From Patescibacteria group bacterium (GTDB taxonomy: Bacteria; Patescibacteriota; Doudnabacteria; UBA920), in assembly GCA_023484515.1 (NCBI GenBank), contig JAMDAY010000013.1:1-33011 (forward strand): a stretch of 33,011 nucleotides of DNA, read 5' to 3'. Of this stretch, positions 1,406 to 22,867 are shown in pieces (within the stretch, counting starts at the first letter, position 1; each line of letters opens with the position of its first letter). The translations under genes were made by a program, and so were the position numbers. A model generated the notes under the pieces. That model saw only the letters and a program-made list of their open reading frames with translations, had not been told where the DNA came from and did not search any database.

Positions 1406-1434
1406 AACCCCGGGCCTAGCGGCCCGGGGTTTTT
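1406..1434 (+). terminator. Strong intrinsic terminator
   Basis: The stem CCCCGGGCC/GGCCCGGGG has a TAGC loop and is followed by TTTTTG. It closes the short unit that starts at about 1312. Confidence 0.85.
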
Positions 1435-1566: not shown

Positions 1567-1697
1567 CCGCAAAAATGGCAGCTTGTCTCCTCCCCCTCCC
1601 TCTTGAGAGCAAACCAAAGAGGTGTTGGAACAAATTAATAAATTGCCATTTTCGCGGCCAGAAAGCTAACTGGGCCGTACCAACTCCAAGGAGGTTG
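1567..1697 (+). promoter_or_regulatory. Structured 5' leader with SD-sequestering hairpin
   Basis: A 14-nt inverted repeat (CCGCAAAAATGGCA, 1567-1580; TGCCATTTTCGCGG, 1644-1657; one mismatch) encloses an inner CCTCTT/AAGAGG helix. CGG at 1655-1657 can instead pair in a second hairpin (CGGCCAG with CTGGGCCG). Finally CAACTCC pairs with GGAGGTTG and buries the AAGGAGG SD of the 1701 gene. Mutually exclusive helices upstream of an SD hairpin are the layout of a translational switch, but no known riboswitch is recognised. Confidence 0.4.
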
Positions 1698-1700
1698 TGT

Positions 1701-1955
1701 ATGATACACTTTAACGAAGAAGAAATAAAAGTCAACGTTTCTGAAGTGGCAGAAGGGGTGCAAGTGAACGGATCATTGAAAATCACGGTATGCTCAAAAC
1801 CGACCGTCCACCACCCTTTCTACTATATGGAATGCGTTGACACACAAGGCCGGCATTTTGCCGGACTTCGACCGCAGAACGATCCCATTGCCATCTTGCG
1901 GCGCTGCCGTTCTTCGGACAGCGTTGAGGTACTCGCCAGGGAGCAAAGCGCTTAG
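1701..1955 (+). CDS. Hypothetical protein, 84 aa, SD-led
   Basis: The family is not recognised. The ORF track opens at 1563, but AAGGAGG at 1689-1695 selects the ATG at 1701 (MIHFNEEEIKVNV...). The protein looks soluble and beta-rich, with alternating hydrophobic residues in EEIKVNVSEVAEGVQVNGSL, an FYYMECVD segment and a central HFAGLRPQND stretch. Its stop codon sits in the loop of the hairpin at 1938-1969, so the last codons double as the 5' arm. It is a lone gene in the accessory island, unlike neighbouring core genes in its strong SD. Confidence 0.6.
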   Translation: MIHFNEEEIKVNVSEVAEGVQVNGSLKITVCSKPTVHHPFYYMECVDTQGRHFAGLRPQNDPIAILRRCRSSDSVEVLAREQSA

Positions 1956-1969
1956 GCGCTTTGCTCCCT
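1938..1969 (+). terminator. Perfect hairpin overlapping the gene end
   Basis: AGGGAGCAAAGCGC (1938-1951) pairs perfectly with GCGCTTTGCTCCCT (1956-1969) around a TTAG loop that contains the stop codon. The following sequence (ATTAATTAT) is AT-rich but has no clear T-tract, so termination efficiency is uncertain. Confidence 0.5.
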
Positions 1970-6188: not shown

Positions 6189-6267
6189 ATTTTTTTATAT
6201 TCTGGATCCCAGATATTTTTGCGGCCTGGCGATACATCAGCGCAAAAAAATCCGGAATGGCACAATG

Positions 6268-6380
6268 GGTGTCATTGCGAGCCATAAGTGCATCCGAATG
6301 GCGAAGCAATCTTTCATTAAGCGACAATAAGATTGCTTCGTCGCCCCTCGGATGCACTCGGGGCTCCTCGCAATGACACC
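6268..6380. repeat. TCATTGCGAGG-type palindromic repeat, copy B
   Basis: GGTGTCATTGCGAG (6268-6281) pairs with CTCGCAATGACACC (6367-6380). GTGCATCCGA pairs with TCGGATGCAC, and GCGAAGCAATCTT pairs with AAGATTGCTTCGTCGC, so the whole 113 nt forms one long hairpin. The - strand ORF 6175-6405 is a translation of this repeat, not a gene. Apart from this repeat the 6190-6440 gap shows nothing. Confidence 0.8.
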
Positions 6381-6444
6381 TGCGGAGCAGGCCAAGGGCC
6401 TGCACTACATCTGCGTCATCTGTTCCCTATCTGCGTATCTGCGG

Positions 6445-13550: not shown

Positions 13551-13592
13551 AAATATTCGCAAATATACAAATCCTCATGGAAGCCTTGAGCC

Positions 13593-13690
13593 TTGATGAC
13601 GCACATCTGGGATAAGCGGTCTTTAGATTACCGGATAATAATCACCATCAACCAAACTTAAGCAAGATTGTCCCAGATGTGCGTCATCAA
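13593..13690 (-). repeat. CTGGGA-type structured repeat, copy 3 (inverted)
   Basis: TTGATGACGCACATCTGGGA (13593-13612) and its complement (13671-13690) form a perfect 20-bp terminal helix. The interior, read on the - strand, matches copies 1 and 2 with only a few substitutions. It sits in the mreB-mreC gap and so would be transcribed within the elongasome mRNA. Confidence 0.8.
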
Positions 13691-13767
13691 CTTTCATCAA
13701 TAACTAACTTATACCGGTCATTCCCATAATAATCGGATCTCAATACCAATTTGTATATTTGTGATTG

Positions 13768-20320: not shown

Positions 20321-20501
20321 TGAAGACGGCCTTTAAGGGGTTACCATGCTAAAGTAAGGCTGGTGATTAACATTGGGTGATGACGCACATCTGGGACAAT
20401 CTTCCTTAAGTTTGGTTGATGATGATTGTTATCCGGCAATCTAAAAACCGCTTATCCCAGATGTGCGTCATCACTGCCTCTATCCCGGAAGGGTGTCTTC
20501 A
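20321..20501 (+). repeat. CTGGGA-type structured repeat, copy 2
   Basis: The core arms TGATGACGCACATCTGGGA (20378-20396) and the complement at 20455-20473 are perfect. An outer helix TGAAGAC (20321) with GTCTTCA (ending 20501) covaries with GAAGGC/GCCTTC of copy 1. The element fills most of the 20195-20551 gene-free gap; otherwise nothing is seen there. Confidence 0.8.
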
Positions 20502-22712: not shown

Positions 22713-22750
22713 TACCTATTTTGTCTATTTTTTCTCGTCTGCATTTTCTG

Positions 22751-22786
22751 ACATTTCTTGCATGCTATATAGCATGCAAGAAATGT
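22751..22786. repeat. 36-nt palindrome P2 (ACATTTC...GAAATGT)
   Basis: The arm ACATTTCTTGCATGCTA is perfectly complementary to the arm after a 2-nt TA centre. It is the sister of P1 at 2909-2944; the two differ at arm positions 9-10 (TG versus CT) with matching changes opposite. Confidence 0.75.
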
Positions 22787-22867
22787 TCCAAAAGGTAATT
22801 AAACATGAGAAAAATGCCGCAAGATTTACAGGCTGCAAAAATTACGGTAAACTTGCATAAAGGATTA

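Follow-up and report, generated by a model that had tools for sequence, protein, structure and literature searches.

The DNA preceding an orphan 84-aa ORF (1701–1955, plus strand) is best explained, with about even confidence, as a lineage-specific long imperfect palindrome; the ORF is of doubtful coding status, and its AUG would be statically paired if the region is transcribed. On this reading, the palindrome is of the kind that fills the intergenic gaps of this genome, and it directly precedes the orphan ORF and its Shine-Dalgarno sequence. A transcript would fold into a long hairpin and, after it, a helix in which the start codon is paired. The paired start codon would hold translation down, mostly in a static manner and presumably without a dedicated small-molecule or temperature sensor. 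The palindrome, its uniqueness and the abundance of similar ones are shown, whereas the paired start codon is a folding prediction, and transcription, translation and the lack of a sensor are inferred. The leader has no match in the other genomes searched and many similar repeats occur in this one, which leaves a switch function unproven and makes a heat sensor unlikely. The window refers to the whole stretch of 33,011 nucleotides that was analysed.

Architecture of the leader

The leader is dominated by two complementary arms on the plus strand, a left arm at 1559–1580 and a right arm at 1644–1665. The core of the repeat is composed of 1567–1580 (CCGCAAAAATGGCA) and 1644–1657 (TGCCATTTTCGCGG). 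The 14-nt inverted repeat of the original prediction is present, with the correction that 13 of the 14 positions are complementary, A1571 and C1653 forming an A·C mismatch, and that the core extends into 22-nt arms with 86% complementarity. Folding assigns the core pairs probabilities of 0.89–1.0. The arms enclose an inner loop region (1583–1641, plus strand) that contains the pyrimidine run CTCCTCCCCCTCCC and, in the minimum-energy structure, two weaker helices formed by 1583–1586/1638–1641 and 1598–1604/1617–1624.

None of 1000 shuffles of 1441–1700 yielded a repeat of this kind, and base composition alone therefore does not explain it. The sub-hairpin 1567–1660 has a folding energy z of −3.3. 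Taken as a whole, the leader has an ordinary folding energy, with z of −1.2 for 1560–1700 and −1.15 for 1540–1760; a z of −1.5 is reached by 21% of windows along the contig. The minus strand of the leader also folds (z −2.4).

Palindromic repeats in the genome

The window contains 27 inverted-repeat centres of the same grade as the leader, compared with 0–1 per shuffled window in 10 shuffles. The leader repeat is thus real, yet ordinary for this genome. Many of the centres are intergenic, and several lie directly upstream of genes, for example next to rplK, frr, proS and mreC. At least three types of repeat are present: the R1 family, the CATTGCGAG type (1456 and 6267), and AT-rich ones.

The R1 family consists of imperfect palindromes of ~111 nt, located at 872–982, 1980–2090, 13586–13696 and 20371–20481, with the sequence GGGCCGCCCTCTGGGAT...ATCCCAGAGGGCGGCCC and a GATGACGCACATCTGGGA subtype. 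With at most 150 candidates scored per genome, an R1 covariance model gives at least 137 strand-wise matches here, usually on both strands of a given place, compared with 0–2 per genome in 21 others from the organism's family. R1 therefore has the appearance of a dispersed hairpin repeat specific to the genus. The leader was rejected as a member: the model does not match it even with filters off, whereas 1980–2090 scores 113 bits. Palindromes of the CATTGCGAG...CTCGCAATGAC type are present in two copies, 1456–1552 and 6267–6381, the first of which directly abuts the leader. In addition, two related long near-perfect palindromes at 2905–2948 and 22750–22787 share the sequence ACATTTCT(C/T)(T/G)CATGCTA...TAGCATG(A/C)(G/A)AGAAATGT.

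Like dispersed intergenic palindromes of the REP/BIME kind, here R1 and the CATTGCGAG type, the leader is an intergenic imperfect inverted repeat of ~100 nt in the same genome. It differs from them in being single copy and unmatched by the R1 model. DNA searches of several hundred phylum genomes, viral contigs, plasmids and phages returned no relative or second copy, and a covariance model of the leader run over 60 genomes hit nothing beyond the query itself and its reverse strand. Single copy and outside R1, the leader is not established as a mobile repeat, a point against the palindrome reading.

The downstream ORF

The 84-aa ORF has a codon score of −0.067; the 5th percentile of real gene pieces is 0.116 and the 95th percentile of wrong frames is 0.056. 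Its codon usage is graded borderline, between real genes and wrong frames, and its own frame scores best of the six. Two similarly placed neighbours, of 92 and 124 aa, have codon scores that are more clearly coding. Most genes of the window have no Shine-Dalgarno sequence, and that of the 84-aa ORF, at −10.9 kcal/mol, is stronger than all others tested there, suggesting that the ORF is real and regulated. A 14-bp perfect hairpin (1938–1969, plus strand) spans its stop codon and is terminator-like with a poor T run. The frame is open through the leader from a GTG at 1563, but an N-terminally extended ORF was discarded, as its codon score of −0.51 resembles that of non-coding sequence.

No homologue of the protein was found in 98 relatives, 380 phylum genomes and 49 order genomes (the sets overlap), nor in the genome contigs, viral contigs, phages and plasmids, and no family in Pfam, PHROG or PADLOC fits it. 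Weak tblastn matches (E 0.002–0.05) were dismissed; on inspection, the strongest are out-of-frame or stop-containing, one example running antisense within a membrane-protein gene. The sole NCBIfam match is to ribosomal protein L31 (TIGR00105; 13.9 bits, E 0.043), under the cut-off of 38.35 bits. The canonical L31 is encoded on contig C31, and the ORF was not accepted as an L31 paralogue.

Predicted pairing of the start codon

The start codon is predicted to lie in a helix (1676–1703, plus strand) in which 1676–1686 pairs with 1691–1703. The Shine-Dalgarno sequence AAGGAGG (1688–1694, plus strand) is located partly in the apical loop of this helix. In the full leader, the AUG has an unpaired probability of 0.02 and the Shine-Dalgarno sequence a mean of 0.45. 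The final helix, which had been proposed to bury the Shine-Dalgarno sequence, thus buries the AUG and only half of the Shine-Dalgarno sequence.

A competing hairpin (1654–1678, plus strand; CGGCCAG...CTGGGCCG) is formed in folding by 1654–1661 and 1670–1678 with one bulge. To form, it needs the GCGG of the right arm and also 1676–1678, which otherwise belong to the start-codon helix. The alternative hairpin of the original prediction is thus possible and shares GCGG with the right arm, but it is minor in the full leader, with a basal pair probability of 0.01–0.05. Its basal pairs are rare because GCGG stays in the long repeat, leaving room for a shorter version of 4 bp. The competing hairpin prevails only if the 5' arm is missing or the fold is forced, the forced state lying 3.7 kcal/mol above the minimum. 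In that forced state, the long repeat loses no more than its basal GCGG pairs and keeps the inner 10 pairs intact.

Removal of the first 15 or 22 bases raises the basal pairs of the competing hairpin to 0.93–0.95 in folding. Once the 5' arm is removed, the unpaired probability of the AUG increases from 0.02 to 0.73. The Shine-Dalgarno sequence is equally accessible with and without the arm (0.45 vs 0.44). The coupling of the 5' arm to the AUG ranks first among the 31 starts of the window, and its size is matched by 0 of 150 full shuffles and by 1.3% of upstream-only shuffles, in which the last 46 bases were kept; these figures come from the folding of one sequence that was picked after the fact for looking complementary. 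The mutually exclusive states that had been proposed are thus retained for the basal helices, which couple the 5' arm to the AUG beyond the level of shuffles and other starts, but not for the inner 10 pairs, which persist. A switch is thus conceivable in the predicted architecture, but it would act on the start codon and not on the Shine-Dalgarno sequence.

Alternative explanations

The coupling to the AUG, which exceeds that of 30 other starts and 150 full shuffles, and the strongest Shine-Dalgarno sequence tested count against a merely static palindrome. They also speak for a private two-state translational leader, a live but less likely alternative. In the off state, the basal pairs 1567–1570/1654–1657 would be closed, leaving 1676–1679 free to pair with the AUG; in the on state they would open, the hairpin 1654–1678 would form and the AUG would be freed. 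A protein, small RNA or ligand acting at the large loop is proposed to set the state. The small energy gap between the states and a very strong Shine-Dalgarno sequence, unlike most genes here, are consistent with such a leader. However, the Shine-Dalgarno sequence is equally accessible in both states, the lack of relatives leaves no conservation or covariation to support it, Rfam offers no match, and no promoter was found. The static palindrome draws on the same lack of relatives for both leader and protein, and on the ordinary folding energy, the adjoining palindrome at 1456–1552, the low codon score and the missing promoter.

A further reading, in which the sequence is not a leader at all, is rather unlikely. 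The ORF would be unexpressed, or transcription would begin inside the repeat and leave the long hairpin out of the mRNA, and the palindrome would be inert DNA. A strong intrinsic terminator (1406–1431, plus strand) separates the leader from a perfect promoter at 1278–1305, and no convincing promoter was found in 1432–1700, where the best match is weak. The borderline codon score, the absence of a homologue and the folding of both strands also agree with inert DNA. Against it stand the strong and well-placed Shine-Dalgarno sequence, the best score of the ORF in its own frame, and the more clearly coding scores of the similarly placed 92- and 124-aa neighbours.

A working leader would add a private cis-regulatory RNA to a bacterium with a small genome, in which Shine-Dalgarno sequences are missing from most genes of the window. 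A leader that does not work would instead warn that genomes rich in palindromes yield leaders that look like riboswitches, and that such calls need relatives or probing.

Comparison with known regulatory RNAs

The leader had been suggested to have the architecture of a translational riboswitch or a thermosensor. Like the expression platform of translational riboswitches, it has helices that overlap, with the translation start sequestered in one of them, and in silico these mutually exclusive helices control access to the start site. It differs from riboswitches in that it has no recognisable aptamer and no conserved family, and in that the AUG changes rather than the Shine-Dalgarno sequence. 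Neither Rfam nor the structure-aware search of 60 genomes revealed a conserved aptamer shared by several sequences; the weak Rfam matches are all under the gathering score, and literature searches returned nothing specific. With no second copy and no relative that could display conservation or covariation, the riboswitch claim gains no positive evidence.

A thermosensor, which would melt on warming to expose the Shine-Dalgarno sequence and the AUG, is very improbable. The leader resembles RNA thermometers of the ROSE/fourU type in that the start codon sits in a helix beside the ribosome-binding site. Unlike them, it is predicted to stay closed below about 60 °C, and it matches no Rfam thermometer. 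From 15 to 50 °C, the predicted access is 0.43–0.47 for the Shine-Dalgarno sequence and 0.00–0.09 for the AUG, which opens only at 60–70 °C. This flat profile, with no opening of the start region in the physiological range, argues against a thermosensor.

A ribosomal protein L31 leader was considered because of the weak TIGR00105 match of the downstream ORF. However, that match is sub-threshold and the downstream gene does not encode L31; L31 is encoded by a separate gene of this genome, and no Rfam leader matches.

Neighbouring leaders and transcription units

The 124-aa ORF is also preceded by a long hairpin (2325–2397), located just before its Shine-Dalgarno sequence (region 2325–2414). The left arm of this hairpin opens with TTTGTGNNNGCAAAAATG, a motif shared with the 84-aa leader, and exact matches to it occur in the genome at these two places only. 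The similarity of the 5' motifs is reached in 5 of 1000 shuffles by the best 18-mer and in 87 of 1000 by local alignment, and the common motif is therefore only a lead. The 84-aa and 124-aa proteins are not similar. A lineage-specific translational control leader, possibly common to the 124-aa ORF and freeing or pairing the AUG rather than the Shine-Dalgarno sequence, is regarded as improbable.

Region 1–2900 contains three Shine-Dalgarno-led ORFs (92, 84 and 124 aa), none of which reaches the threshold of a family in Pfam, NCBIfam or PADLOC. In 3000–33011, most ribosomal, cell-shape and secretion genes have no Shine-Dalgarno sequence, and a −10-like hexamer often lies just before the start. 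Three strong sigma-70-like promoters (TTGACA...TATAAT type, 10–12/12) are found in the units 137–262, 1278–1392 and 2112–2279. Each is located ~7–10 nt before the ATG of a 25–43-aa ORF, which is followed by a strong terminator. Such units resemble leaderless transcripts that encode very small proteins.
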